Source of the DNA: Gammaproteobacteria bacterium
GTDB taxonomy: Bacteria; Pseudomonadota; Gammaproteobacteria; Steroidobacterales; GCA-2729495
Direction of reading: 5' to 3'
Length of the DNA stretch: 64,000 nucleotides
NCBI GenBank assembly: GCA_014337915.1
Contig: QUBU01000003.1
Span: 1 to 64,000 of the forward strand
Part shown: positions 2,897 through 20,203 of the stretch, piece after piece
How the letters are laid out: each line of letters begins with the position of its first letter
Position numbering within the stretch: the first letter of the stretch is position 1
The notes under the pieces: generated by a model
Databases searched by the model: none
Seen by the model: only the letters and a program-made list of their open reading frames with translations
Told to the model about the DNA's origin: nothing
Translations under genes and position numbers: made by a program

Positions 2897-4033
2897 ATGC
2901 TTATCAACAACTGGTACGTGGCAGCCGCCGCCTCCGAAGTGCGCAGGGACAAGCCGCTGAAGGTACGCATGCTGGCCTGCGATTTCGTGCTGTTCCGTGA
3001 CGACAAGGACAAGGCTGTCTGCCTGAGCGACGTCTGCTGCCATCGTGGCGCCTCGCTCGGCAGGGGCGAGATGAATGGCTGCAACGTCGTCTGTCCGTAC
3101 CACGGCTGGGAGTTCGCCGGCGACGGCCGCTGCACCCTGATCCCCGCCATGGGCTCGGAAGTCACGATTCCCAAGCGCGTGCGGGTCGATGCCTATCCGA
3201 CGCAGGAAAAGTACGGCTGGGTATGGGTGTTCCTCGGCGACCTGCCCGAGAGCCAGCGCCCGCGCATCCCCGACCTGTTCCCCGAGTACGACGATCCGGT
3301 CGGCTGGCACCGCATTCCCTACGGCTTCGAAGCCAAGACCAACTGGATGCGGTTCGAGGAGAACTCGCTGGACACGGCCCACACGCAGTTCGTGCACCGC
3401 CAGTTCGGTGCCAAGCGCACCCCCAAGCTGGAGAACTTCCCGCTGGAGGAATCCGAGTGGGGTGCACGGGTGACCCGCCGCAAGCCGGCACCGAAGCCGG
3501 ACCAGAAGAGCGGCGAAATGGCCAAGATGCTCAGTGAGGAGCGGCTGAATACCAGCGTGGCGCTGGAGTTCAGCCTGGTGGGCCTCTGCCATCGCATCCA
3601 GCCGACGTTCAAGGAAGGCATGACGCAGATCAACTTCACCGCGCGCACGCCGGTGGACCGCAAGCTGAGCCGCGCCATCGGCTGGCAGGCCCGCAACTAC
3701 CTGAAGGAGCCGCAGTTCGACGCCGAGCGTATGGCGGGTATCCAGCTGGCCGTGGTTGAGGATCTCTCGGTGGTCGAGGACCTCAAGCCGCCGATCACGC
3801 CGGCGAAGCTCTCCGACGAGTTCCTCACCGAGACCGACAGCATGGAGATGGCTTTCCGCAAGCGCTGCTTCAAGTGGGCCGCCCAGGGCTACGAGATCGA
3901 CCTCGACGAATACGAGCGCCGCAGCCAGACGGAAATGCTGGTGATCCCGTCGCCGGCCCGCCGTGAGGATCCGAAGAACTGGGTGCACAAGACGGTGCCG
4001 CTGAAGCCGGCCTCGAAGGAGTCGCGCGACTGA
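2897..4033 (+). CDS. Rieske aromatic ring-hydroxylating oxygenase alpha subunit (intact)
   Basis: A complete 378-residue Rieske oxygenase. Cluster ligands are Cys47/His49 (CCHRG) and Cys66/His69 (CPYHGW). The mononuclear iron triad is Asp159, His162 and His167 in ENSLDTAHTQFVH, with the usual D-x2-H-x4-H spacing. The size fits single-component-type alpha subunits of the vanillate demethylase/phenoxybenzoate dioxygenase group, which work with a separate reductase; no reductase gene is next to it. It is divergent from the broken paralog, and the 276-base gap contains two FNR-like palindromes. If these are real, an O2-using enzyme would be controlled by an anaerobic regulator, which is odd unless oxygen is made inside the cell. 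Substrate unknown. Confidence 0.88.
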   Translation: MLINNWYVAAAASEVRRDKPLKVRMLACDFVLFRDDKDKAVCLSDVCCHRGASLGRGEMNGCNVVCPYHGWEFAGDGRCTLIPAMGSEVTIPKRVRVDAYPTQEKYGWVWVFLGDLPESQRPRIPDLFPEYDDPVGWHRIPYGFEAKTNWMRFEENSLDTAHTQFVHRQFGAKRTPKLENFPLEESEWGARVTRRKPAPKPDQKSGEMAKMLSEERLNTSVALEFSLVGLCHRIQPTFKEGMTQINFTARTPVDRKLSRAIGWQARNYLKEPQFDAERMAGIQLAVVEDLSVVEDLKPPITPAKLSDEFLTETDSMEMAFRKRCFKWAAQGYEIDLDEYERRSQTEMLVIPSPARREDPKNWVHKTVPLKPASKESRD

Positions 4034-4152: not shown

Positions 4153-4932
4153 ATGGCAGGGCGCAAGTCCGCAGCGGCGGGCGGCGGCCGGACTGGTCCG
4201 CTGGCAGCACGACGGCGTAGCGCCGAGCCTGATGGCATCCTGCCCTGCAGCCGCTGCCAGGTTGCCGCCAGGTGCCTGCCCGGGAGTGTCCCGGAAGGCC
4301 AGATCGTGCAGGTGGAGTCCATGGTCACGCAGCAGCGCGTGCTGCGTGCCGGCGCGGTGCTGTTCCGCGCCGGCGAGGAGTTTTCCTCGCTGTTCGCGGT
4401 TCGGTCTGGCTGCCTGAAGTCCACGGTGATCGACGTGGACGGGCGCGAGCACATCCTCAACTTCCACCTGCCGGGTGAAGTCCTCGGCTTCGCCTCGATC
4501 TACCAGCGGCGGCATGCGGGCAACGCCATCGCGTTGACCACCTCCACGGTGTGCTACCTCTCCTTCAGTGAAGTGCTGCGGCTCTCGCAGCAGTTTCCCG
4601 AACTGATCCTCGGCCTGCTGCGCATTGCCAGCCGTTCGGCGCTCTACACCGGCCGCCTCACCGGTGACCACAACGCCGTGGTGCGCGTCGCCGCTTTCCT
4701 CAAGAGCCTGTCGGGCCGGCTCAGGGCGCAGGGCCGGCAGTCCTCGGAATTTTCCCTGGTCATGTCGCGCGAGGACATCGCCAACCACCTGCGGCTTGCA
4801 CCCGAGACCGTCAGCCGGGTGCTGACCCAGCTGCGCCAGCAGGGCGTGATCAGCGCCCGGGGCAAGGCCGTGCGGCTGCTCGACGAGGAGCGCCTGCAGG
4901 GCCTCGCTGGCCCGATGCTCCCTTACGGCTAG
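4153..4932 (+). CDS. fnr: FNR-type oxygen-sensing transcription regulator
   Basis: A 259-residue Crp/Fnr-family regulator. Four cysteines sit at 32, 35, 41 and 134. The C-x2-C-x5-C spacing, and the 93 residues to the fourth Cys (TSTVCYLSF), match E. coli FNR (20, 23, 29, 122), so it should carry an O2- and NO-labile [4Fe-4S] cluster. The DNA-recognition helix reads E218-T-V-S221-R222, the E-x2-S-R pattern that reads TTGAT-N4-ATCAA. The start has an AGGAGG site at 4141. It is followed by nnrS after 10 bases. Boxes of the expected sequence occur at 9032 and, less perfectly, at 2684 and 2795, so it probably controls the Nod-like gene and perhaps the Rieske genes. Other names for such proteins are ANR and FixK, but the cysteines argue for FNR/ANR. 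Confidence 0.9.
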   Translation: MAGRKSAAAGGGRTGPLAARRRSAEPDGILPCSRCQVAARCLPGSVPEGQIVQVESMVTQQRVLRAGAVLFRAGEEFSSLFAVRSGCLKSTVIDVDGREHILNFHLPGEVLGFASIYQRRHAGNAIALTTSTVCYLSFSEVLRLSQQFPELILGLLRIASRSALYTGRLTGDHNAVVRVAAFLKSLSGRLRAQGRQSSEFSLVMSREDIANHLRLAPETVSRVLTQLRQQGVISARGKAVRLLDEERLQGLAGPMLPYG

Positions 4933-4942
4933 GAATCCGGCA

Positions 4943-6064
4943 TTGGCACGGCTGTTCGAACCCTGGCGGCTGTTCTTTCCATCCGCGCTGCTGCTGGCAC
5001 CGCTCAATGTGCTGGCCTGGCTGGCGGTGCGCCAGGGCATCGTCGACTGGCCCGCGGCTTCCGCGTCCTGGCATGGACGGGAGATGGTGTTTGGCTACAG
5101 CTTCGCGGTGATTGCCGGCTACCTGATCCCGGCACTGCCCTGGCGGCAGGTGGTGACGCTCTGGCTGCTGTGGCTGCTGGGGCGACTGGCGTGGATCGCC
5201 CCGCCCGGGAGCCTGCTGCCCTGGCTGCAGCTGCTGGCGGGCGCGGCCTTCCCGGCGACCGTGGCGATACTCGGCTTCCAGCGCTTCCATGCGGTGAAGC
5301 GTGCCCGCAACCTGGCCTTTCCGGTGATCATGCTGGTGCTCGGCGTCGCCGGGGTGGCGACCTACGCGGCCGAGGTGGGCTGGTTGCCGGTGCCGGCGCA
5401 GAATCCGGCGGCACTGTCGGTGTACGTGGTGTCGCTGCTGGTGATGGTGATGGGTGGCCGCGCGGTGCCGACCGCGACCGTGGGCTCGCTGCGTGCACAG
5501 GGGCAGGTGCTGCGTGTCGTGCCGCGGCCACGGCTGGAGGCGGCCGGCATCGCCGGCATGCTGTCGCTGCTGGTGCTGGACATGCTGGGCCTGGGGCGCG
5601 CCGCGGGTCTGGTGGCGCTCGCCGTGGCGGGCGTGCTGGCGGCGCAGATGCTGCGCTGGCATAGCCTGCGCGTGCTCAACGATCCCGAGACCTGGCCGCT
5701 GCACCTCGGCTTTTTCTGGCTGGGCCTCGGGCTGGTGCTGATTGGCCTGCAGCGCCTGGGCTTCATCCTGCCGCCGGATGCTGGGGCGCTGCATGCGCTG
5801 GCGGCGGGCGGCATCGGCACCGTTACGCTGGTCATGCTGCTGCGGGTTGCGCGGCAGCGCGCGGGCGAGCTCCCCGCCTCGCCGGCGCTGCTGCAGGCGC
5901 TGCAGATCGCCCTGGCGGTGGCGGTGACCCTGCGCGTTGCCGGCGGCTGGATCCTGCCTGGCCAGCGCGAATCCATGCTCTGGCTGGCCGCGCTGGCGTG
6001 GCTGGTCGCATTTGGCCTCGGCACCGCCGTGCTGCTGCCGGCGGCGTGGCGTCCACCGCGCTGA
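4943..6064 (+). CDS. nnrS: NnrS family heme/copper membrane protein
   Basis: A 373-residue, very hydrophobic protein with about twelve membrane segments. The N-terminal LFEPWRLFFPSALLLAP and the WHGREMVFGYSFAVIAGYLIPALP stretch are typical of NnrS, including its conserved WHxxEM(L/V)FG. NnrS proteins bind heme and copper and relieve nitric oxide stress; they are usually under NO- or FNR/NNR-type control in denitrifiers. The start is a TTG at 4943 just after the fnr stop, with AGGA 8 bases upstream; no better in-frame start was seen. Likely co-transcribed with fnr. Placement fits the NO theme of the region. Confidence 0.82.
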   Translation: MARLFEPWRLFFPSALLLAPLNVLAWLAVRQGIVDWPAASASWHGREMVFGYSFAVIAGYLIPALPWRQVVTLWLLWLLGRLAWIAPPGSLLPWLQLLAGAAFPATVAILGFQRFHAVKRARNLAFPVIMLVLGVAGVATYAAEVGWLPVPAQNPAALSVYVVSLLVMVMGGRAVPTATVGSLRAQGQVLRVVPRPRLEAAGIAGMLSLLVLDMLGLGRAAGLVALAVAGVLAAQMLRWHSLRVLNDPETWPLHLGFFWLGLGLVLIGLQRLGFILPPDAGALHALAAGGIGTVTLVMLLRVARQRAGELPASPALLQALQIALAVAVTLRVAGGWILPGQRESMLWLAALAWLVAFGLGTAVLLPAAWRPPR

Positions 6065-7106: not shown

Positions 7107-7430
7107 ATGGCTCTGGTCGTCACCGAGAACTGCATCAACTGCAAGCACACTTACTGTGCGGACGTCTGCCCCGTGGATGCCTTCCGCGAAGGCCCGAACT
7201 TCCTGGTGATCAACCCGGACGAATGCATCGACTGCGGGCTCTGCGAGCCGGCCTGCATCGTCGGCGCCATCATGGACGAGCACGCAGTGCCCGGCCAGCT
7301 GCGCCCGTTCATCCAGCTCAATGCGCAGCTCGGCAATGTCTGGCCGAAGATCCGCGCCGGGAAGCCCCCGCCGCCGGATGCCGAGGAGTGGGACGGCGTG
7401 CCGGGCAAGCTCGCACTGCTCGAGCGTTGA
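7107..7430 (+). CDS. fdxA: Seven-iron ferredoxin (3Fe-4S/4Fe-4S), FdxA type
   Basis: A 107-residue cytoplasmic electron carrier. The first cluster motif is C-x2-C-x4-C-x3-CP ([14 protein letters not shown]) and the second C-x2-C-x2-C-x3-C ([11 protein letters not shown]), where the usual proline after the last Cys is replaced by Ile. [16 protein letters not shown] is the family signature. The C-terminal region with [12 protein letters not shown] is normal for FdxA. It stands alone before two converging repeat-protein genes. Electron partners are unknown; the Rieske oxygenases and the cytochrome b/ferredoxin fusion in this region both need low-potential electron carriers. Confidence 0.9.
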
Positions 7431-7440
7431 GCGGCAGGCC

Positions 7441-8013
7441 TCAGTAGAACGCGCCGGCGTCGTCGGTCTTGAAGTTGTGTTGCCGGACCAGCCGTCCGGC
7501 CTCGTCGAAGTATTCCCAGACGCCCGACCGCCTGCGGTTCATGAACCGGCCGCGCTTCCTGAGCTGGCCACTGGGATAGTAGAAATGCCACAGCCCTTCG
7601 GGCCGGCCCTCGTGGTAGCGGCCGGTTTCGGCGAGGCGGCCGTTCTCGTGGAACTTCTCGTACAGGCCCTCGAGGTCACCGGCCCTGTAGTTGAGCCGCT
7701 CGTATAGCTGGCCGGTGGCATCGAAGCGTTCGAAGAGGCCGTCCGGCTTGCCCTCCCGCGAGCTGCCGCTCACCTTGAGCCGGCCGTTGTCATAGTAGAT
7801 GCGCCAGGGCCCATCGCGTTCACCATTGCGGTACGTGCACTCGATCTCCAGCTGGCCGTTTGGATGATAGAACTCCCAGGGACCTTCCTCCTTGCCGTCC
7901 CTGAAGTTGCCTCTGAAGCCGATTTCGCCGTTGTCGTGGAGCCCTTCGGCCGGTCCGTCAGGCTGCCTGAAGCGTGACAGCCAGCGCTCGAGGTAATAGC
8001 GGAAGTTCAGCAT
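7441..8013 (-). CDS. MORN/YwqK-type repeat protein (1)
   Basis: A 190-residue protein built from about seven repeats of 20-24 residues with the core G-x-W-x2-(Y/F)-(Y/H)-x-N-G-(Q/R)-L, for example GPWEFYHPNGQLE and GLWHFYYPSGQLR. These are MORN_2 repeats, found in proteins labelled YwqK antitoxin-like, but most members have no proven role. No signal peptide is seen. It lies 18 bases downstream of a second such gene, so the pair forms an operon divergent from the Nod-like gene. Role unknown; a beta-strand scaffold is the safe description. Confidence 0.75.
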   Translation of the reverse strand: MLNFRYYLERWLSRFRQPDGPAEGLHDNGEIGFRGNFRDGKEEGPWEFYHPNGQLEIECTYRNGERDGPWRIYYDNGRLKVSGSSREGKPDGLFERFDATGQLYERLNYRAGDLEGLYEKFHENGRLAETGRYHEGRPEGLWHFYYPSGQLRKRGRFMNRRRSGVWEYFDEAGRLVRQHNFKTDDAGAFY

Positions 8014-8031
8014 GGCAGTGGTACCGTGGCG

Positions 8032-8817
8032 CTACTGCCGCGCGCCATTGCGGAATTCACCCATCTCCAGCAGCTGCCCGTCGCCCGCGTAGGTTTCGAA
8101 GCGGCCGTCGAGGACTCCGAACCGGTAGTGCCCGCGGCTTTTCAGCTGGCCGTTCGGGTGATAGGACTCGCAGCTGCCGTCACGCTTGCCGTCACGGTAG
8201 TTTTCCCGCAGCTGCAGCTGGCCATCGTCGTAGAACAGTTCGAGCATTCCGTCCACGGCATCGTTGCGGTAGCTGGCTTTCAGCCGCAGCTCGCCATTGC
8301 GATGGAATTCCTCCCAGGGGCCGCTGCGCTTGCCCTCGCGAAACTCGCCCCGGGCCTGCAACTGGCCGTTCTCGTGGTATGCCTCGTACGGCCCTTCGCG
8401 CAGATCGTTCCGGTGGCTGCCACGCGAGCGCAGCTGGCCGTTGCTGTAGTGGACCTCGAACGGCCCGTTGCGCAGGTCCGAGACGAAGCTGCCGCGCGAG
8501 CGCAGCTGGCCGTTCGGGTGGAAAAGCTCCCAGGGCCCGTCTTTCTTGTCGTGCTTGTACTCCTGCCGTTCACGCAGCTGCCCGCTGGAATGAAACCACT
8601 CCTGCACCCCGTGCAGCTGGCCCTTCAGATAGTTTCCACGGAAACCGACCTGGCCGTTGGCAAAGCGGGTCTCCACCACACCCTCGGGAGGGCCAGCGCC
8701 GTTGCTGTTCGCCGGCAGGACCTGGGCTTCGTCGGGATCCACGGCTCCGCTGGCAGCGGGCGGCGCAGTCGCTCCGGGTGCCGTCCAGGCACGGATCAGC
8801 GACTTGAAAAAAGCCAT
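8032..8817 (-). CDS. MORN/YwqK-type repeat protein (2)
   Basis: A 261-residue protein with a short N-terminal helix (AFFKSLIRAW), a low-complexity linker to about residue 45, and about nine MORN_2 repeats such as GPWELFHPNGQLRSRG. The ATG at 8817 follows GGAGGGAAA and is preferred over a frame that could be extended upstream to 8949. Repeats are more regular than in the downstream neighbour, which suggests duplication within the pair. No catalytic motif. It is transcribed away from the Nod-like gene; the 308-base gap holds the FNR box at 9032 and no other gene. Confidence 0.75.
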   Translation of the reverse strand: MAFFKSLIRAWTAPGATAPPAASGAVDPDEAQVLPANSNGAGPPEGVVETRFANGQVGFRGNYLKGQLHGVQEWFHSSGQLRERQEYKHDKKDGPWELFHPNGQLRSRGSFVSDLRNGPFEVHYSNGQLRSRGSHRNDLREGPYEAYHENGQLQARGEFREGKRSGPWEEFHRNGELRLKASYRNDAVDGMLELFYDDGQLQLRENYRDGKRDGSCESYHPNGQLKSRGHYRFGVLDGRFETYAGDGQLLEMGEFRNGARQ

Positions 8818-9031: not shown

Positions 9032-9045
9032 TTGATCTAGATCAT
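9032..9045 (+). promoter_or_regulatory. FNR box upstream of the Nod-like gene
   Basis: TTGAT-CTAG-ATCAT differs from the FNR consensus TTGAT-N4-ATCAA only at the last base. Its centre is 87 bases before the ATG at 9126; class II activation would place the transcription start near 9080. It is the best FNR-type site noticed in the window and argues that the gene is switched on when oxygen is low. Confidence 0.75.
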
Positions 9046-9125: not shown

Positions 9126-11537
9126 ATGAGTACAAATGCAGCAAACGTGAGTACCGGCGACTCCAATCTGGCAATGTGGTTGCTGAACAAGAAAAACTGG
9201 TTCACGCATTTCCTGATTGTCGCCATTATCAGTATCGCGGGCCTGGTCTACCTTGGCAGGGAGACCTACGTCGGTTCACCCCCACTCGCGAATTTCGTCA
9301 CCTCCAGCGGCCAGGTGGTGATGACAACGGAGCAGCTGGCACGCGGCAAGGAGATCTTCCACCTCCGTGGCCTGATGCTCTATGGCTCATTCTGGGGTGA
9401 CGGTGCCGAGCGTGGCCCGGATTTCACCGCTGATTCGATGCACCGGATCGGTGCCTCGATGCGCTCGTACTACGAGGAGGAGACCAAGCGCCGCACCGGC
9501 GCCCAGTCCCTCACCGAATACGAGAAAGACGCCATCGCACAGCGGGTTCTCCGGGAGATGCACGGCAACACGTACAGCGCCGAGGCCGGGACGATCACCC
9601 TGAATGACGCCCAGGTGTTTGCGTACGACGAGTTGCTGACGCACTACACGCGGATGTTCACCGACGCGACCTATCCGGACCACATGGATCCGATCAACCA
9701 GGTGTCCGGCGAGCAGAACCTGCGTGACCTGACGGCCTTCTTCTACTGGGGTGGCTGGGTCTCCGCGGCCAACCGCCCGGGTGAAGAGTACAGCTACACG
9801 CACAACTGGCCGTATGAGCCCGAGGTTGGCAACGTGCCGACCACGGCCACGTTCATCTGGACCTTCATCTCCATCTTCGCGCTGTGGGTCGGCATCAGCG
9901 TCGTGCTGTACGTCTACGGCCAGATGAAGGAACAGCCGGTCGACGTGTTCTCGCAGGAAGGCGCCAACGGCCACTCACTGACGACTTCCGACCTCGAGAA
10001 CGGCTACGTCCGCGAAACCCAGCGCAGCACCTACAAGTTCTTCGCCCTGGCGATGATCGTGTTTGGGCTGCAGGTGCTGGGCGGCGTGGTCAGCGCCTGG
10101 GACTTCATCCGGCCGTTCGGCATCAACCTCAATGAACTGCTGCCGTTCACCGTATCGCGCAGCTACCACGCGATCCTGCAGATCTACTGGTTCTTCATGT
10201 GCTGGGTGGGATACACGATCTTCTTCCTGCCGCGCCTGACGAAGGTGCCGAAGGGCCAGAATTTCCTGATCAACCTGCTGTTCGTCATGTCGGTCATCGT
10301 CGCCCTCGGCTGCGTCTTCGGCATCTATGCCGGCCAGCGCGGCTGGATCGATGACAAGATGGCCTACCTGTTCGGCAGCCAGGGCTGGGAGTTCATCGAG
10401 CTGGGTCGTGTCTTCCAGTGGATCCTGCTGGCGGCCTTCTCGCTGTGGATCTACATCATCTACCGTGGCGTGAAGCCCTGGATCAGCGTGAAGAACGTCT
10501 GGTCGGTGCCGGCCTGGCTGCTCTGGGGCAGCGGCGTGATGGTGCTGTTCCTGTTCTTCAGCGTCCTCATGACGCCGGATTCCAACTTCGCCATCTCCGA
10601 CTACTGGCGCTGGATGACGGTGCACATGTGGGTGGAGGTCACCTTCGAGGTTTTCACGACCGTGATTGTGGCCTACCTGCTGGTACAGATGGGCCTGGTG
10701 ACCCGGATGATGGCCGAGCGCGTCATCTTCCTGGCCGTCATGCTGTTCTTCGTGACCGCCATCAACGGCATCTCCCACAACTTCTACTGGATTGCGAAGC
10801 CGACGGGCATCATCGCGGTGGGCAGCGTGTTCTCCACGCTGCAGGTGCTGCCGCTGCTGCTGCTCACCCTTGATGCCTGGCAGATGCGCCAGGAGGGTGG
10901 CCGTGCCCACGAGTTCCGCGTCCAGGGCAAGCAGGTCGTGGTGATGGAAGGCGTGTGGCTGTTCATCCTTGGCGTCAACTTCTGGAACATCTTCGGCGCC
11001 GGGGTGTTCGGTTCGCTGATCACGCTGCCGATCGTCAACTACTACGAGCACGCCACCTACATGACCGGCAACCACGCACATGCCGCCATGTTCGGTGTGA
11101 AGGGCAACGTCGCCCTGGCTGGCATGCTGTTCTGCCTCCAGCACCTGTTCCAGAAGTCTGCCTGGAACGAGAAGCTGGTGCGGACGGTGTTCTGGTCCTT
11201 CCAGATCGGCCTGGCGCTGATGATGTTCCTCGACCTGTTCCCGGTGGGCCTGTACCAGATCTACGTGGTGCTGACCGAGGGCCTCTGGTACGCACGGTCG
11301 ACCGACGTGATCATGGGCCCGGTGTTCGCGACGCTGACCTACCTGCGTTCGATCGGCGGTGCCGTGTTCATCTTCGGTGGCCTGATCCCGATCATCTACT
11401 TCGTGCTCTCCGGCGCTGGCCGGCTGCGCAAGGAAGTGGACGTGACCACCGACGAGTGGGCGCAGTACCACAAGGAATACGGCAACGAAGGCGGCAAGGA
11501 GTGGGCGGCACAGGAGGAGCCGAAGGTTTCCCGCTAG
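9126..11537 (+). CDS. nod: Putative nitric oxide dismutase (Nod), qNOR-like with His-to-Asn active-site change
   Basis: An 803-residue heme-copper-superfamily membrane protein of the quinol NO reductase (NorZ) architecture: first helix at about 26-44, a periplasmic cytochrome c-like domain without a CxxCH heme motif to about 240, then twelve or so helices. Low-spin heme His348 (VSRSYH) and the pair His650/His652 (NHAHAAMFG) are kept. The metal-site motif HMWVE (His500, Glu504) is kept, but the normal His-His pair is His551-Asn552 (ISHNFYW). As I recall, Asn here is the mark of Nod from Methylomirabilis and strain HdN1, proposed to make N2 and O2 from two NO. Glycine after WVE is also replaced, by Val. 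The start follows AGGAG; an in-frame GTG at 9096 lacks support. Single-gene unit: FNR box before, terminator after. A diverged NO reductase remains possible. Confidence 0.82.
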   Translation: MSTNAANVSTGDSNLAMWLLNKKNWFTHFLIVAIISIAGLVYLGRETYVGSPPLANFVTSSGQVVMTTEQLARGKEIFHLRGLMLYGSFWGDGAERGPDFTADSMHRIGASMRSYYEEETKRRTGAQSLTEYEKDAIAQRVLREMHGNTYSAEAGTITLNDAQVFAYDELLTHYTRMFTDATYPDHMDPINQVSGEQNLRDLTAFFYWGGWVSAANRPGEEYSYTHNWPYEPEVGNVPTTATFIWTFISIFALWVGISVVLYVYGQMKEQPVDVFSQEGANGHSLTTSDLENGYVRETQRSTYKFFALAMIVFGLQVLGGVVSAWDFIRPFGINLNELLPFTVSRSYHAILQIYWFFMCWVGYTIFFLPRLTKVPKGQNFLINLLFVMSVIVALGCVFGIYAGQRGWIDDKMAYLFGSQGWEFIELGRVFQWILLAAFSLWIYIIYRGVKPWISVKNVWSVPAWLLWGSGVMVLFLFFSVLMTPDSNFAISDYWRWMTVHMWVEVTFEVFTTVIVAYLLVQMGLVTRMMAERVIFLAVMLFFVTAINGISHNFYWIAKPTGIIAVGSVFSTLQVLPLLLLTLDAWQMRQEGGRAHEFRVQGKQVVVMEGVWLFILGVNFWNIFGAGVFGSLITLPIVNYYEHATYMTGNHAHAAMFGVKGNVALAGMLFCLQHLFQKSAWNEKLVRTVFWSFQIGLALMMFLDLFPVGLYQIYVVLTEGLWYARSTDVIMGPVFATLTYLRSIGGAVFIFGGLIPIIYFVLSGAGRLRKEVDVTTDEWAQYHKEYGNEGGKEWAAQEEPKVSR

Positions 11538-12222: not shown

Positions 12223-12783
12223 ATGGCAATCACGTCTCCGGCCAACCGCCTGTGGTGGAAGGAACCGATCCATCGGGTCGAACTCATCTGGATCGTCATC
12301 GCCTTCCTCTGGGGCCTGGCCATGTTCTTCACCATGGTCTACTGGCATGCGATCGGCGAACAGAACCTCGCCAACACGACCTACAAGATCGCGCCGGCGG
12401 CCTTTTCCGCCAAGGCCGAGCGCATGGCCGAGCAGTACAAGGTGCGCGACGAGCTCGGCATCCCGGTGGTGCGGCCGCCGCCGGGTGGCGATGTCTACCT
12501 GCTGGGCCGCATCTGGATGTGGTGGCCGATCCTGGAGCTGGAAAAAGGCCAGAGCTATCGCATCCACCTCTCGGCGATGGAGTATTCGCACGGCTTCTCG
12601 CTGCAGCCGGTGAACATCAACATCCAGGTGCAGCCGGGATACGAGCATGTCTTCACCATGACCCCGACTGATACCGGGCAGTTCTCCATCCTCTGCAACG
12701 AGTACTGCGGTTTTGGCCATCACACCATGGCCAGCCCCCTGTACGTGGTTGAATCGGGTGCGGCCAGGAGTCCACAGGAATGA
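12223..12783 (+). CDS. CuA-containing subunit II of a heme-copper NO reductase/oxidase (NorS-like)
   Basis: A 186-residue membrane-anchored cupredoxin. One N-terminal helix (about 21-42) anchors a periplasmic domain carrying a complete binuclear CuA site: His123 (EYSHGF) and Cys158-x-Glu160-x-Cys162-x3-His166-x2-Met169. Only one anchor helix and the short length resemble B-type or NorS-type subunits rather than the two-helix subunit II of mitochondrial-type oxidases. It should accept electrons from a cytochrome c or cupredoxin and pass them to the subunit I encoded next. Its stop overlaps the next start (ATGA). The downstream order cyoE-like, senC fits a norS-norY-senC arrangement known from ammonia oxidisers; canonical oxidase is the alternative. 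Confidence 0.78.
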   Translation: MAITSPANRLWWKEPIHRVELIWIVIAFLWGLAMFFTMVYWHAIGEQNLANTTYKIAPAAFSAKAERMAEQYKVRDELGIPVVRPPPGGDVYLLGRIWMWWPILELEKGQSYRIHLSAMEYSHGFSLQPVNINIQVQPGYEHVFTMTPTDTGQFSILCNEYCGFGHHTMASPLYVVESGAARSPQE

Positions 12784-14477
12784 GCACCTCCCAGCAGTTT
12801 CGCGTTTGCCCGACCACCGGCCTCAAGGTCTACAGCGACGCGCAGTCGCTTATCAAGGCTAATGCCGTTGCGGCGGTGATCTTCCTGGCCATTGGGGGTC
12901 TGTTCGGCCTGTCCGTCGCCCTGACGCGCTGGCCCGATGTACACCTGCTGCCCATGGACTGGTTCTACCTGGCACTGACGGCGCATGGCCTGGACGTGCT
13001 GCTGTGCTGGATCATCTTCTTCGAGGTGGCGGTACTGTACTTCGCTTCCGCGGTGCTGCTGAACTGCCGGCTGGCATCGCCGCGAACGGCATGGGTCGCG
13101 TTCTGGCTGATGATCATCGGCGCCGTGCTCACCAACATCACCATCCTGCAGGGCGATTCCACGGTGATGTTCACCTCGTATACGCCACTCAAGGCGGCAC
13201 CGAATTTCTACCTGGGGCTGATCATCTTCGCTGTCGGCGCGTTGGTCGCCTGCGGCGTGTTCTTCGGTACCCTGGTCATCGCCAAGGATGAGCGCACCTA
13301 CGAGGGCTCGGTGCCGCTGGTCACCTTCGGCGCGCTGACCGCCGCGATCATCGCCGTGTTCACGCTCGCATCCGGGGCAATCATCCTGGTGCCGACCTGG
13401 CTGTGGTCGCTCGGCTACATCAGCAACATAGACCCGCTGATGTACAAGCTGGTCTGGTGGGCCATGGGCCACTCGTCGCAGCAGATCAACGTCTCGGCGC
13501 ATGTGTCGATCTGGTATGCCGTTGCCGCCATCCTCCTGGGGGCGAAGCCGCTGTCGGAGAAGGCGAGCCGCCTGGCGTTTCTGCTCTACATCTTCTTCCT
13601 GCAGCTGGCGAGCGCCCACCACCTGCTGGTGGAGCCCGGCGTCGGCTCGGAATGGAAGATCTTCAACACCAGCTATGCCATGTACCTGGCCGTGCTCGGC
13701 AGCATGATCCATGCCATGACCGTGCCCGGGACCATTGAGGCCGCACAGCGGCGCCGGGGTTTCAACAAGGGCATGTTCGAGTGGCTGCGCAAGGCGCCCT
13801 GGGGCAACCCGGCCTTCTCCGGCGTGTTCATGTCGCTGGTGATGTTCGGCTTCCTCGGCGGCATTTCCGGCGTGGTGCTCGGCACCGAGCAGATCAACCT
13901 GATCATGCACAACACGCTGTACGTTCCCGGGCACTTCCACGCCACGGTGGTGACGGGCACGACGCTGACCTTCATGGCAGTGACCTACCTGCTGATACCG
14001 CTGCTGTTCCAGCGTGAAATCATGTTCCCGCGCCTGGCCAGGTGGCAGCCCTATGTGTTCGCCATTGGCGCCGCCGGTATCTCGCTGTTCATGATGGGTG
14101 CCGGTACGCTTGGTGTCCCGCGCCGGCACTGGGACATCACCTTCGCCGATGCCATTTTCCCGTACCAGATTCCCTCGGCCGGGTTCCTGATGATGGCCCT
14201 GAACGGCATCAGTGCGGTATTTGCCGCGACCGGCGGCATCATGTACATCGTCAACGTCGTGGCTTCGGTGTTCTTCGGCAAGCGCACTGCGGATGCACCG
14301 GCGAAGGCGAGCGCGCCGGAGCCTGTCATGGCGCGGCCGGTGGTGGCCGAGTACGGCAGTGCCGGCACCATGTACATTCCGGGCACGATTTTCCTGGTGG
14401 GCGTGTTCTTCGTCTCCTTCGTCCTGTATTACTTCGTCAACTGGAAGTACCTGGCCGAAGTCTGGCCCCTGAGGTAA
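12780..14477 (+). CDS. Heme-copper subunit I with H-x3-Q in place of H-x3-Y (NorY/eNOR-like NO reductase)
   Basis: A 565-residue protein with about 13-14 membrane helices. Low-spin heme His69 (TAHGLD), the helix VI metal ligand His231, the pair His280-His281 (SAHHLL) and the heme pair His385/His387 (GHFHAT) are all present. The residue four after His231, where O2-reducing enzymes have the cross-linked tyrosine (HPEVY), is Gln235 (HSSQQ). Loss of this tyrosine is typical of NO-reducing branches of the superfamily, so I favour a CuA-type NO reductase (sNOR/eNOR group) over a cytochrome oxidase. It is translationally coupled to the subunit II gene and followed after 7 bases by heme O synthase, which suggests an O- or A-type heme. 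Which of the two reactions it performs needs phylogeny. Confidence 0.75.
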   Translation: MSTSQQFRVCPTTGLKVYSDAQSLIKANAVAAVIFLAIGGLFGLSVALTRWPDVHLLPMDWFYLALTAHGLDVLLCWIIFFEVAVLYFASAVLLNCRLASPRTAWVAFWLMIIGAVLTNITILQGDSTVMFTSYTPLKAAPNFYLGLIIFAVGALVACGVFFGTLVIAKDERTYEGSVPLVTFGALTAAIIAVFTLASGAIILVPTWLWSLGYISNIDPLMYKLVWWAMGHSSQQINVSAHVSIWYAVAAILLGAKPLSEKASRLAFLLYIFFLQLASAHHLLVEPGVGSEWKIFNTSYAMYLAVLGSMIHAMTVPGTIEAAQRRRGFNKGMFEWLRKAPWGNPAFSGVFMSLVMFGFLGGISGVVLGTEQINLIMHNTLYVPGHFHATVVTGTTLTFMAVTYLLIPLLFQREIMFPRLARWQPYVFAIGAAGISLFMMGAGTLGVPRRHWDITFADAIFPYQIPSAGFLMMALNGISAVFAATGGIMYIVNVVASVFFGKRTADAPAKASAPEPVMARPVVAEYGSAGTMYIPGTIFLVGVFFVSFVLYYFVNWKYLAEVWPLR

Positions 14478-14484
14478 GCAGGGC

Positions 14485-15417
14485 ATGCCGGCCGAGCCTG
14501 CCGCCACGGTACTGGGCGCTGCTGCCGAATCGGCCAGCCGCGTTGCCAGGGCGCGGCAGGCGTTCTCGGTCTTCAAGCCGCGCATCGCGCTGGAGATCAC
14601 CCTGACGGCGGTGGCCGGTGCCGCGGTCACGCCGGGGCCGCCCCTGAGCCTCGCCGAGGTGCTGGCGCTGGCCCTGGCGGTGTTCCTCTCGGCAGCGGCC
14701 GCCGGCGCCTACAATCAGGTGTCGGAGCCGGATCTCGACAGCCGCATGCTGCGTACCCGACAGCGCCCGTTCGTGACCGGGCAACTGGCACCGGGTCCGC
14801 TGTGGCTGGTCGTCATCGCCGGGCTCACGGCGTTCTCGGTGGTGCTTGCCGCTGCCGTACTCAACACCATGGCCGCGGCGCAGGTGCTGCTGGGTGGGCT
14901 GACCTACGGTTACATCTACACCGCCTGGCTGAAGCGGCGCACCTGGCTGAACATCGTCATTGGCGGGCTGGCAGGCAGCTTTGCGGCGCTGGCCGGGTCG
15001 GCTGCAGTAGATCCGCAATTGCCGGCGGCTGCCTGGGTGTTCGCGGCCGCGCTGTTCTTCTGGACACCGCCGCATTTCTGGAGCCTGGCGTTCTACAACA
15101 AGCGGGACTACGCCAGGGCCGGCGTCCCCATGTTGCCGAACTTCATGGCCGACCGGCCGCTGGCTATCGTGGTCCTCGCCCATACGGTGGTGCTGGTAGC
15201 GCTGACACTGATGCCGGCGCTGCTGGTGACAGGCTGGTTCTACACGCTGTGTGCTGCCATCGGCGGCGCCTATTTCATCTGGACCAGCGCGGTTTTCGTC
15301 CACAACCCGTCCCGCAGCAATGCCATGGCCACCTTCCACGGTTCGCTGTGGCAGCTCGGGCTGCTGCTCCTCGGTGCCATTGCCAGTGCGGTGCTCTCCG
15401 GCCACCTGGCGGCCTGA
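14485..15417 (+). CDS. ctaB: Protoheme IX farnesyltransferase (heme O synthase)
   Basis: A 310-residue UbiA-family membrane enzyme that adds a farnesyl group to heme b to make heme O. The polyprenyl diphosphate-binding motif is in AYNQVSEPDLDSRMLRTRQRP, a variant of the usual NDYxDxxID with Glu in one place, and the second signature is LKRRTWLNIVIGG. About nine helices, normal length. It lies inside the subunit II/subunit I/senC operon, only 7 bases after subunit I, so it most likely supplies the heme for that enzyme. No ctaA for heme A is seen in the window. Confidence 0.88.
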   Translation: MPAEPAATVLGAAAESASRVARARQAFSVFKPRIALEITLTAVAGAAVTPGPPLSLAEVLALALAVFLSAAAAGAYNQVSEPDLDSRMLRTRQRPFVTGQLAPGPLWLVVIAGLTAFSVVLAAAVLNTMAAAQVLLGGLTYGYIYTAWLKRRTWLNIVIGGLAGSFAALAGSAAVDPQLPAAAWVFAAALFFWTPPHFWSLAFYNKRDYARAGVPMLPNFMADRPLAIVVLAHTVVLVALTLMPALLVTGWFYTLCAAIGGAYFIWTSAVFVHNPSRSNAMATFHGSLWQLGLLLLGAIASAVLSGHLAA

Positions 15418-15420
15418 GTG

Positions 15421-16251
15421 ATGGCTGGCATGTCCGTGGGCGGCCGGTTCCGCCCCGCGCTGCTGGCAGCGGCGTCTGCCCTGGTCCTGCTGTCGGCCAG
15501 CAACGGCCGTGCAGCGGCGCTCGATGAAGAGCAGGCCCTGGGCATCAGCCAGGCGGCCATCGGTCGCGAGACGGGCAATCACCGGTTCACGGACCAGCAC
15601 GGCCAGCCTCTGGAACTGGCCGCACTGCGGGGCCGGCCGGTGGTAGTGAGCTACATCTACACCAGCTGCGCATTCATCTGCCCAACCCTGACCTCGAGCC
15701 TCGCCCAGGTCGTTCGCGTGGCGCGCCAGACGCTGGGCGAAGAAGCCTTCTCGGTGGTCACCGTAGGCTTCGACACCAGGGTGGACGGCCCGGAGCAGAT
15801 GCGTCGCCATGCGGCCGAGCGCGGCATCCGGGATCCGCGCTGGTACTTCGTCAGCGGTGACGAAGCCAGCGTGGCGGCCTTCGCCGGCGAGATCGGTTTT
15901 TCCTATGCGCCGGTCGCAGGTGGGTTCGACCATCTGACACAGGTTACAATCCTCGACAGCGCAGGGCGGGTATACCAGCAGGTCTACGGGCCTGAGTTCC
16001 AGCCGCCGATGCTCGTTGATCCCCTGAAGCGGCTGGCGCTCGGCATGCCGGTGACCGAGCGGCCGTTGGCTGATTTCCTGTCCCGGGTACGCCTGTTATG
16101 CACGTCCTACGATCCCAAGAGCGGCCGCTACCGCTTCGATTACTCGCTGATCCTCGAGATTGCCATCGGGCTGAGCTGCGCCCTGCTGGTGCTGGTTTTC
16201 GTGCTGCGTTCCTGGCGGCAGGAGCAGCCCGGCACCGGTCCACGTCCCTGA
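15421..16251 (+). CDS. senC: SCO1/SenC family copper chaperone
   Basis: A 276-residue thioredoxin-fold protein with an N-terminal signal segment (about 10-32), the copper-binding C-x3-C motif at Cys83/Cys87 (CAFICP) and the third ligand His171 (FDHLTQ). A second membrane helix near the C-terminus (about 243-262) anchors it. SCO proteins deliver copper to the CuA site of subunit II, which matches the CuA gene three genes upstream. The ATG at 15421 follows the ctaB stop by 3 bases; a GTG at 15418 is an alternative. In ammonia oxidisers senC is joined to norS and norY. Confidence 0.87.
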   Translation: MAGMSVGGRFRPALLAAASALVLLSASNGRAAALDEEQALGISQAAIGRETGNHRFTDQHGQPLELAALRGRPVVVSYIYTSCAFICPTLTSSLAQVVRVARQTLGEEAFSVVTVGFDTRVDGPEQMRRHAAERGIRDPRWYFVSGDEASVAAFAGEIGFSYAPVAGGFDHLTQVTILDSAGRVYQQVYGPEFQPPMLVDPLKRLALGMPVTERPLADFLSRVRLLCTSYDPKSGRYRFDYSLILEIAIGLSCALLVLVFVLRSWRQEQPGTGPRP

Positions 16252-16282: not shown

Positions 16283-18370
16283 ATGAATTTCCTGAAGCGG
16301 CTGATCCGTGGCGGATTCGAGCGCCTGGAAAGCGGCCTGGACGCCGTCTGCGGCCCACGACTCAACCCGCTGGTGCAGCTGGGCGCCCTGGGCTGGCTGC
16401 TGTTCTGGCTGATCACCATCAGTGGCATCTACCTCTACATCTTCTTCGACACGGGCGTCACCCAGGCCTATGCGTCCGTGGAGGACCTGACCCACAAGCA
16501 GTGGTGGGCCGGCGGCATCCTGCGCAGCATCCATCGCTACGCCTCCGACGGGCTGGTGGTGGTGACATTCGTCCACATGCTGCGTGAGTTCGGCATGGAC
16601 CGCCTGCGCGGCGTGCGCTGGTTCGCCTGGGTGACCGGCCTGCTGCTGATCGGCTTCATCTACGTCTGCGGCATCACCGGCTACTGGATGGTCTGGGACC
16701 AGCTGGCACAGTACGTCGCGCTGACCACCTCGCGCTGGCTGGATGCGCTGCCGATCTTCGCCGAGCCGATCTCGAGGAACTTCGTCAACAACGCCGGGCT
16801 GAGCGGCCGGTTCTTTTCCCTCATGGCCTTCGTGCACATCGCCGCGCCGCTGCTGATGCTGCTGTTCATGTGGGTGCATATCCAGCGCTACAGCCATGCC
16901 AGGGTATACCCGGCGCGCAACCTGACCATCGCCACCGTGGTTGCGTTGCTGGCCCTGTCGCTGGTCGAGCCGGCCCTGAGCCAGGGTGCCGCCAATCTCG
17001 ACGAGCTCGCCGCCTCGGTCGGGCTCGACTGGTTCTACCTGGCGTTCTATCCGCTGATGGATGCGGTCGGCCCCGGCGGCCTGTGGGCGCTGTCGCTGGG
17101 ATTCCTGCTGGTGATGGCGATCCTGCCCTGGGCGCCACCGCTGCGGCGGCCGGCGCCGGCCGTGGTGCACCTCGACAACTGCAATGGCTGTGCGCGTTGC
17201 TTCGACGACTGCCCGTACAGCGCGATCACCATGCAGCCGCGCAGCGACGGCGCGGCCTTCTCCCAGGAGGCGGTGGTCGATCCCGACCTCTGCGTGAGTT
17301 GCGGCATCTGCGCCGGTGCCTGCCCGACGGCAACACCTTTTCGCAGGGCCACCGCACTGGTGCCCGGGATCGAGTTGCCGGAGCACGGCATCGCCGCGCT
17401 GCGGGACCGGGTGACCAGCGCCTGCCAGGGCCTGGCTGGCAAGCCCGGTGTGCTGGTGTTCCGCTGCGAGCACGGGGCCGACGTCGCCCAGCCCTCGACC
17501 GGGGCTGCTGCCGTCATCGACGTGCCCTGCGCGGGCATGGTCCCGCCATCGTTCATCGACCTGGTGATCACGCGGCACATGGCGTCCGGAGTGATGCTGG
17601 CCGGCTGCCACGAGACCGGCTGCTACCAGCGGCTCGGAACCGAGTGGACCAGCCGCCGCGTTGCTGCAACGCGAGACCCCTATCTGCGACAGCGCATACC
17701 ACGCGAGCGCGTGGCCCTGTCCTGGGCGAGTTCCGTCCAACAGGACGCGAGGTCTGCGGCCGTCGAGCAGTTTGTCGCCTCGCTGGGCGGGCTCGCCGAA
17801 GTGGCACCGCACCGGCCGGTGCCCGCCGAAGGGCAGCTGCAGGCGGCCTGGCAGGCGCCGGCGCGGCGGTGGCCGGGCTGGCTGCGCTGGCCGCTGCAGG
17901 CGTTGCTGCTGGCCGGCGCCATGTGGCCGCTCGGGTTCCTGTCGGCGCGGCCGGAAGTCGTGCTGCGGGGCGAGAACGAGGCGGTGGTGACCCTGACTTT
18001 CAGCCATGCGGGCCGCCCACTGCAGGAGTGCCGCAAGCAGACCCCGGAGGAGCTGGCCAAGCTGCCGCCCAACATGCGCCGGCCCGTGGATTGCGCACGC
18101 GGGCGCTGGCCGGTGTACATTGAACTGGAGCTGGATGGGCGCCAGGTATTCGCCGGCACCGAGGAACCCGCTGGCCTGTGGAACGACGGTCCCTCCAGCC
18201 TGTTCGAGCGATTCCCGGTACCCGCCGGTCCGCGGCAGGCCGTGGTCAGGCTGCGCGACAGTGGACGCGAATCCGGGTTCGACTACAGCGCCACGGCCAG
18301 CCTCGACCTGCGCCCGGGCCAGAACCTGGTCGTCGAGTTCCGGCAGCCTGGCGGCTTTACCTTCAGATGA
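16283..18370 (+). CDS. Cytochrome b / 2[4Fe-4S] ferredoxin / MvhD-like fusion protein
   Basis: A 695-residue multidomain redox protein. Residues 1-285 resemble the N-terminal half of cytochrome b/b6, with His84/His98 and His185/His199 spaced 14 apart for two b hemes. Residues 295-350 hold two [4Fe-4S] motifs (Cys300, 303, 306, 310 and Cys337, 340, 343, 347). Residues about 388-485 look like the MvhD/FlpD domain, with Cys395, 416, 442 and 447 for a [2Fe-2S]-type site. A further helix (about 523-541) leads to a C-terminal, probably periplasmic, beta domain with two cysteines. The order suggests transfer between quinone and a soluble low-potential carrier across the membrane. It follows senC by 31 bases, so it may feed or drain the neighbouring NO/O2 enzymes. 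Precise reaction unknown. Confidence 0.8.
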   Translation: MNFLKRLIRGGFERLESGLDAVCGPRLNPLVQLGALGWLLFWLITISGIYLYIFFDTGVTQAYASVEDLTHKQWWAGGILRSIHRYASDGLVVVTFVHMLREFGMDRLRGVRWFAWVTGLLLIGFIYVCGITGYWMVWDQLAQYVALTTSRWLDALPIFAEPISRNFVNNAGLSGRFFSLMAFVHIAAPLLMLLFMWVHIQRYSHARVYPARNLTIATVVALLALSLVEPALSQGAANLDELAASVGLDWFYLAFYPLMDAVGPGGLWALSLGFLLVMAILPWAPPLRRPAPAVVHLDNCNGCARCFDDCPYSAITMQPRSDGAAFSQEAVVDPDLCVSCGICAGACPTATPFRRATALVPGIELPEHGIAALRDRVTSACQGLAGKPGVLVFRCEHGADVAQPSTGAAAVIDVPCAGMVPPSFIDLVITRHMASGVMLAGCHETGCYQRLGTEWTSRRVAATRDPYLRQRIPRERVALSWASSVQQDARSAAVEQFVASLGGLAEVAPHRPVPAEGQLQAAWQAPARRWPGWLRWPLQALLLAGAMWPLGFLSARPEVVLRGENEAVVTLTFSHAGRPLQECRKQTPEELAKLPPNMRRPVDCARGRWPVYIELELDGRQVFAGTEEPAGLWNDGPSSLFERFPVPAGPRQAVVRLRDSGRESGFDYSATASLDLRPGQNLVVEFRQPGGFTFR

Positions 18371-18386: not shown

Positions 18387-18788
18387 ATGACCCAGATCGA
18401 GTGGCGACCGGAGTTCTCGATCGGCATCGCCGATGTCGACTACGAGCATCAGGAGCTGATTGCCTGGATCAACCGCACGCTGGTTGCCAGCCTCGATGCG
18501 GCCGGCGACCGGTCAGCGGTGACGGACCTGCTGGGCGAGGTTTTCGCCAAGGTGTCCGCGCACTTCGCCCTGGAAGAGCGCGTCATGCGCGACCAGGGCT
18601 ACGACCAGCTCACCGAGCACAAGCGCGACCATGAGCTGCTGCTCGACGACATCCGCGACATCATGGACGACTTCGAGTCCGGCGGTGACCTCGTGGAGGA
18701 ACGCTTCGCGACGCGCCTCAGCGAATGGTTCGGCCTGCATTTCCGGACATACGACGCGCGCTTCCACCATCGTATGTCGGGCGCCTGA
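18387..18788 (+). CDS. Bacteriohemerythrin
   Basis: A 133-residue four-helix-bundle protein with a full set of diiron ligands: His21, His59, Glu63, His78, His82, His118 and Asp123. Bacterial hemerythrins bind O2 reversibly and some bind or detoxify NO; they are used to carry or store oxygen in low-oxygen cells. It starts 16 bases after the cytochrome b fusion and probably belongs to that operon. An oxygen-binding protein next to a Nod-like enzyme and oxygenases fits internal oxygen handling, but this is inference. Confidence 0.88.
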   Translation: MTQIEWRPEFSIGIADVDYEHQELIAWINRTLVASLDAAGDRSAVTDLLGEVFAKVSAHFALEERVMRDQGYDQLTEHKRDHELLLDDIRDIMDDFESGGDLVEERFATRLSEWFGLHFRTYDARFHHRMSGA

Positions 18789-19276: not shown

Positions 19277-20053
19277 TCAGACGCGATAGCTGCCCGTGGC
19301 GCGCGCCTGGCCAGGCCGGTTGGGCGGATAGCTGGCCCACTTGTCCCGGTAGTAGCGCTGGCGCAGGTCGCCGGCGGATTCGCGGTTGAACGTCAGGTAG
19401 ATGTTGCGCCGCTGGCGGTCGCTGCTGTTGGGCGGCGAGCCGTGGGGCACGTAGCAGTCGAAGAACACCACGTCGCCCGGGTCGGCCTCCAGCAGCTGGT
19501 AGTCGTCGAGCGGCTCGTAGGGTGGATCGGCGTCGGTGAGCGGCTGCCATTCCGGGCCCATGAGCGCACGCTCGTAGTTGCCGGTGGCGAGGAAGCTCAG
19601 CGCGGCATTGTCCCGGCGATTGGCATCCACGACGATCGCCATGGTGACGAAGAAGTCGGCGTAGGCATTCCAGCCGGCGGCCTGGTCCTGGTGGAGCTTG
19701 TCTGCCCGGCAGCCCGGCAGTTTGAAGTTCACCTTCTCCTTGAACAGCAGCGCGCGCTCGCCGAGCAGCGCACCGACCGCGTTCATGACCTGCGGCGACA
19801 GCATCAGCCGGGTCATCTGCGGGTTGTGGTCGCCGAGGATGTGCTCGGCCCGCACCAGCAGGCTCTCGCCGGTGAGGGGGCTCTGCTCGTAGTAGCAGGC
19901 TTCGGCACCTTCGCGCGGCGGGTTGCTGCGCAGCTGGTCGAGGTAGTCGGACATGCTGCGCACGGCCGCGGCATCGAAGAAGCCGCGGCGCACGCAATAG
20001 CCGCGTTGCTGGAAGTCGCGGATGTCCTGGGCCGTCAGTTCCATGCCCTCCAT
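19277..20053 (-). CDS. Phytanoyl-CoA dioxygenase (PhyH) family non-heme iron oxygenase
   Basis: A 258-residue Fe(II)/2-oxoglutarate oxygenase. The iron ligands are the H-x-D of KLHQDQAAGW and the distal His in YVPHGSPPN; the Arg in RRNIYLTFN is placed to bind 2-oxoglutarate. Such enzymes hydroxylate alkyl-CoA or small natural products and need O2. The ATG at 20053 has GGAGG five bases upstream and is preferred to a GTG at 20065. It is divergent from the MIP18/NnrS-like pair. Substrate unknown. Confidence 0.8.
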   Translation of the reverse strand: MEGMELTAQDIRDFQQRGYCVRRGFFDAAAVRSMSDYLDQLRSNPPREGAEACYYEQSPLTGESLLVRAEHILGDHNPQMTRLMLSPQVMNAVGALLGERALLFKEKVNFKLPGCRADKLHQDQAAGWNAYADFFVTMAIVVDANRRDNAALSFLATGNYERALMGPEWQPLTDADPPYEPLDDYQLLEADPGDVVFFDCYVPHGSPPNSSDRQRRNIYLTFNRESAGDLRQRYYRDKWASYPPNRPGQARATGSYRV

Positions 20054-20203
20054 TGTCGCCTCCACGGGCGGGCAGGGGCCTAGCTGTAGATGTACCTATT
20101 GTCGCGCTGCCCCGGCGCGGATCCTGGCGGTGGCCGGCCGGTCCCCCCGGGCGGGCGTGATATCCTCGATCCCGGTCCAGCTGAACTGCATTCCGGTGCC
20201 AGG

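Follow-up and report, generated by a model that had tools for sequence, protein, structure and literature searches.

The window analysed here, a stretch of 64,000 nucleotides from the genome of an uncultured gammaproteobacterium, carries a gene for a putative nitric oxide dismutase (nod). Nod is thought to split NO into N2 and O2, giving the cell its own oxygen under anoxia. To our knowledge, very few enzymes produce O2 inside the cell independently of light, and among them the proof is thinnest for Nod. The features of the locus are listed below by position in the window and strand.

2897–4033 (+): Rieske non-heme iron oxygenase, O2-using
4306–4932 (+): Crp/Fnr-type regulator, candidate NO/redox regulator, assigned by sequence reading
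4943–6064 (+): NnrS, NO stress response membrane protein
7107–7430 (+): ferredoxin (Fer4 and DUF3470), part of the conserved nod neighbourhood
7441–8742 (−): two MORN_2-repeat proteins, encoded divergently to nod
9032–9045 (+): TTGATCTAGATCAT, a palindrome resembling an FNR/DNR site, about 80 nt before the nod start codon
9126–11537 (+): nod, putative nitric oxide dismutase, 803 aa, assigned from frame, residues, trees and fold
10776–10781 (+): CAC AAC codons of His551-Asn552, the diagnostic HN pair
10842–10844 (+): codon of Gln573 (Glu581 of Geobacillus qNOR), the second diagnostic substitution; coordinates counted from the start at 9126, residue identified by alignment
12223–12783 (+): CuA-type, COX2-like subunit II of a Gln-type heme-copper enzyme
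12780–14477 (+): B-family (ba3-like) heme-copper subunit I with Gln for the cross-linked Tyr (GHSSQQIN)
14485–16251 (+): UbiA/CtaB-type prenyltransferase and SCO1/SenC assembly genes
16283–18370 (+): cytochrome b–ferredoxin–FlpD-like fusion redox protein
18387–18788 (+): bacteriohemerythrin
19277–20065 (−): PhyH-type dioxygenase, methylphosphonate-hydroxylase-like, scoring below the model cut-off

Organization of the nod neighbourhood

The nod reading frame is open from the ATG at 9126 to the stop codon ending at 11537, and an AGGAG-like site lies about 10 nt before the ATG. Upstream, the arrangement of the ferredoxin gene and the MORN_2 pair is common to the Nod loci of many gammaproteobacteria, including strain HdN1. 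The palindrome TTGATCTAGATCAT is the sole site in the window with one mismatch to TTGATNNNNATCAA; its conservation is confined to the closest relatives: it is shared with a 95% identical relative, and a few congeners have similar sites. An FNR box common to all Nod loci was considered and rejected. Since the best upstream matches over all Nod loci were hardly better than those in intragenic windows, the FNR-like palindrome is at most a genus-level feature. The first-pass annotation had described the gene as sitting with O2-using oxygenases and a hemerythrin, and both were found, the former as the Rieske (2897–4033) and PhyH-type (19277–20065) genes and the latter as the bacteriohemerythrin at 18387–18788. 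On the minus strand at 1425–2610, a Rieske oxygenase gene has its Rieske domain and its catalytic domain in separate frames and is either a pseudogene or the product of an assembly error. Further along the window, a run of acyl-CoA genes (38791–61906) encodes thiolase, enoyl-CoA hydratase/3-hydroxyacyl-CoA dehydrogenase, acyl-CoA dehydrogenase and an AMP-binding ligase, which suggests that lipids, sterols or compounds like them serve as growth substrates.

Directly downstream of nod lies the Gln-type heme-copper cluster. Its subunit I (12780–14477) resembles ba3 oxidases through B-family similarity, and the Gln within GHSSQQIN is kept by those aligned homologues that extend over this site. Published signatures for the Tyr position are Gln in eNOR, Asn in sNOR and Asp in gNOR (PMC8756737, Table A4). 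An sNOR identity for these genes was therefore dropped, because sNOR is listed with Asn and the residue here is Gln. The gene at 12780–14477 instead combines two features of an eNOR, Gln in place of the active-site Tyr and an adjoining CuA-type cupredoxin subunit II. Judged by these features, the 12223–14477 pair would be the third NO reductase of the genome, besides a qNOR and a cNOR. The cluster adjoins nod in the closest relatives and at one further locus (L015), and lies within about 10 kb of it at two others (L022 and L023); in most Nod loci it is unlinked or absent. This distribution bears on the idea that the protein has the Nod fold and a different role, either in NO sensing or buffering or as a non-catalytic partner of the Gln-type NOR-like complex. 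The position of nod directly upstream of the cluster in the window and in close relatives would fit such a role, but the cluster is not adjacent in most Nod loci. Moreover, no variation is seen in any of the heme ligands or in most of the metal ligands, and we regard this explanation as highly improbable.

Catalytic and quinol-site residues

The alignment set about 70 Nod loci against the PDB-derived sequences of Geobacillus qNOR (3AYF) and of another qNOR of solved structure, from a proteobacterium (chain 28pn_A, labelled Nme_qNOR), together with the qNOR and cNOR of HdN1 and those of the window's own genome. As the first-pass annotation had claimed, the HH pair of NO reductases is replaced by HN (CAC AAC at 10776–10781, His551-Asn552), and H348, H500, E504, H650 and H652 are all present at the positions it gave. 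The reported change of the qNOR tetrad WVEG to WVEV was also confirmed, at residues 502–505, and all 18 members of a Nod alignment have V505. The ligands H348, H500, H551, H650 and H652 correspond to H355, H508, H559, H651 and H653 of the Geobacillus enzyme, and both E504 (E512) and E508 (E516) are retained. Relative to Geobacillus qNOR, the catalytic-site changes are H560 to N552, with every other His ligand kept, and E581 to Q573, the latter a further change that the first reading had missed. All 65 Nod-clade sequences that could be compared, from several phyla, have N552 and Q573; one of the peptide patterns used to fetch the loci, HNFYWIAK, could have biased this count towards HN. In contrast, the corresponding positions hold His and Glu in all 7 qNORs and 6 cNORs compared, so that HN occurs in none of these 13. 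A CxxCH motif is absent from the window protein, which has only three Cys residues and thus no heme c. In NCBIfam, no Nod or NOR model matching the window protein was found.

Mapping of the quinol site on the Geobacillus enzyme had been set beforehand as a possible refutation of the Nod assignment. The residues proved not to be intact: H328 is replaced by W325, E332 by R329 and D746 by G745, and F336 is deleted. Hence neither the intact quinol site nor the HH/Glu catalytic residues that mark a qNOR are found in the window protein. Putative Nod was originally defined by an Asn that replaces a His ligand, a Gln where the catalytic-site Glu would be and loss of the quinol site (Ettwig 2012, PMC3413370), and all three are present here (N552, Q573 and the lost quinol site). 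Later surveys mark nod by changes at His328, Glu332 and Phe336 together with His560 to Asn, and report Arg at the Glu332 position as a common pattern (PMC10286720).

Comparison with the founding members of the family points in the same direction. The Nod of HdN1 (FP929140, locus L029/L077) is 65% identical to the window protein over 786 residues and likewise has HN, Q, a lost quinol site and Trp at the His328 position. Its pattern W, K, gap, N, Q, I nearly matches the W, R, gap, N, Q, G of the window protein, the Asp746 position being Ile in HdN1 and Gly here. The HdN1 locus belongs to a different genus and has the same MORN and ferredoxin neighbours; unlike the window, it showed no Gln-type NOR-like cluster within the 8-kb flanks searched. 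The Nod of Candidatus Methylomirabilis (DAMO_2434/2437 type, locus L038/L080) is 60% identical to the window protein and shares the combination of HN, Q and Gly745, whereas its quinol-site columns read E/G/G rather than W/R/gap. Geobacillus qNOR, at about 31% identity, has the same fold and heme ligands but differs in its intact quinol site and HH/E catalytic residues.

Phylogeny, distribution and fold

Two maximum-likelihood trees were built, a quick tree of 60 rows and a careful tree of 34 rows with bootstraps, and they agree. The Nod clade, including the NC10 Nod, received support of 100 in the quick tree and 100/100 in the careful tree. Within it, the window protein joins first the other sequences of its genus and next HdN1 Nod (97 and 97/97, respectively); Methylomirabilis Nod falls in a different subclade. 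A maximum-likelihood tree had been proposed as a check on whether the protein branches inside normal qNORs; it lies beside HdN1 Nod, and the sampled qNORs are all outside the Nod clade in both trees. Depending on where Geobacillus qNOR falls relative to the other qNORs and to Nod, Nod may be sister to qNOR or may have arisen within it. A single change suffices to account for the HH/HN distribution on the tree. Two more distant sequences, from a Flavobacteriales assembly (L083) and a Planctomycetota assembly (L084), are 43% identical and carry HN and Gln; they branch just outside the main Nod clade and are joined to it with 98/100 support. L083 lies in tandem with a Nod, and L084 belongs to the genome of a Planctomycetota Nod carrier.

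Peptide patterns derived from the protein matched 70 loci in data holding one genome per species, with full-length matches from 84% identity downwards and one fragment at 92%. According to the record titles, these come from Gamma-, Alpha- and Betaproteobacteria, Myxococcota, Acidobacteriota, Planctomycetota, Bdellovibrionota, Bacteroidota and Methylomirabilota. A search of related genomes, which is free of the HNFYWIAK bias, found nod in 8 of the 10 genomes of the window's genus, two of the carriers being one-contig genomes (G015 and G016). The dN/dS of nod was 0.11 against the 95% identical relative and 0.13–0.24 against three others; judging from these ratios, the gene is under purifying selection.

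The AlphaFold2 model, run on an 18-sequence alignment, had a mean pLDDT of 76 and a pTM of 0.81. Its top ten PDB matches are all qNORs, with 3AYF first (TM 0.83/0.88, 31% identity). Since residues 556–561 and 633–643 near the metal site are of low confidence, no geometry is claimed from the model. The protein thus combines a qNOR-like fold with the remaining His ligands and no heme c. Beyond this fold, nothing favours an ordinary qNOR in which His became Asn by chance or through sequencing. At least four concerted diagnostic changes, the same residues in independent assemblies and a separate true qNOR in the same genome make this scarcely conceivable, and an ordinary qNOR or sequencing artefact was ruled out by the residue mapping, the tree, the dN/dS values and the HN pair in 65/65 homologues.

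Since the protein does not fall inside the sampled qNORs and its quinol-site residues are not intact, the family assignment is firm. On the basis of sequence, the window gene is established as a bona fide Nod, probably orthologous to that of HdN1. It is a new member of a known family and not a Nod of another kind, and by itself does not change what is known of the enzyme. Nevertheless, the set sharpens the diagnostic signature to HN, Q at 573, V at 505 and loss of D746. It also shows that, in one gammaproteobacterial genus, most species have retained Nod, with a defined NO-metabolism neighbourhood. With its one-contig genomes, this genus provides further sequences for the Nod hypothesis beyond Methylomirabilis and HdN1.

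NO metabolism in the genome and the proposed reaction

The window's own genome was searched family by family. It encodes a true qNOR (34% identical to Nod) with all quinol and catalytic residues intact, a cNOR preceded by a c-type cytochrome gene, and NirS, whose gene is present in 10 of 10 genomes of the genus. Two further heme-copper oxidases were found at C13 and C20. For NosZ, no full-length match was obtained in the own genome, only matches to the CuA domain; NarG was not above the cut-off in this genome and is present in 4 of the 10 in the genus; copper nitrite reductase gave nothing above the cut-off in the genus. The search for pMMO, considered as a consumer of the O2 from Nod, gave no match and is weak, as control genomes gave none either. 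With NirS and Nod in one genome, a route from nitrite through NO to N2 and O2 is open. The intact qNOR, the cNOR and the Gln-type NOR-like enzyme make conversion of NO to N2O possible as well, so that Nod would not be the sole NO sink.

Overall, the observations are probably best explained by an HdN1-type Nod that disproportionates NO to N2 and O2 instead of reducing it to N2O. The reaction 2 NO to N2 + O2 is inferred from the residues seen here and from the physiology of other organisms that carry Nod. NO supplied by NirS would bind, two molecules at a time, at a heme b3/FeB-like site whose metal is predicted to be held by two His and an Asn in place of three His, with Gln for the catalytic Glu. 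Both the quinol site and heme c are missing, which would leave outside electrons without a recognisable entry. This, together with the loss of the catalytic-site Glu, suggests that NO is disproportionated to N2 and O2 rather than reduced to N2O. The resulting O2 could then pass to the terminal oxidases and oxygenases of the cell; that it feeds the nearby Rieske and PhyH oxygenases is speculation.

As far as we know, no assay on purified Nod exists, and the family is biochemically unproven. The most serious rival is a divergent NO reductase or NO-detoxifying enzyme with an altered donor, which would make N2O with electrons reaching it through the remodelled site. It would account for the qNOR fold and heme ligands and for the NO metabolism genes around nod. 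What keeps it alive is a report (PMC6636425, citing Woehle 2018) of foraminiferal NORs that have Nod-like features and make N2O. Against such an enzyme stand the lost quinol site, the absence of heme c and the Gln for catalytic Glu in 65/65 homologues; furthermore, an intact qNOR and a cNOR are already present, yet nod has been retained in seven further species of the genus. We therefore judge an N2O-making reductase unlikely.

An extension of the disproportionation reading is a genus-wide module, in which Nod would make O2 from NirS-derived NO for Rieske and other oxygenases and the adjacent Gln-type complex would remove excess NO. We consider this quite doubtful; if true, oxygenase pathways would run in anoxic water alongside DMSO-reductase type II enzymes. 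Alpha and beta genes of the latter type, resembling ethylbenzene dehydrogenase/perchlorate reductase, occur on contigs 11 and 19 of the own genome (L143:13286–17111 and L146:2865–7313). The L143 set lies about 6 kb from nirS, and a Rieske oxygenase, UbiM and NnrS are also encoded near nirS.
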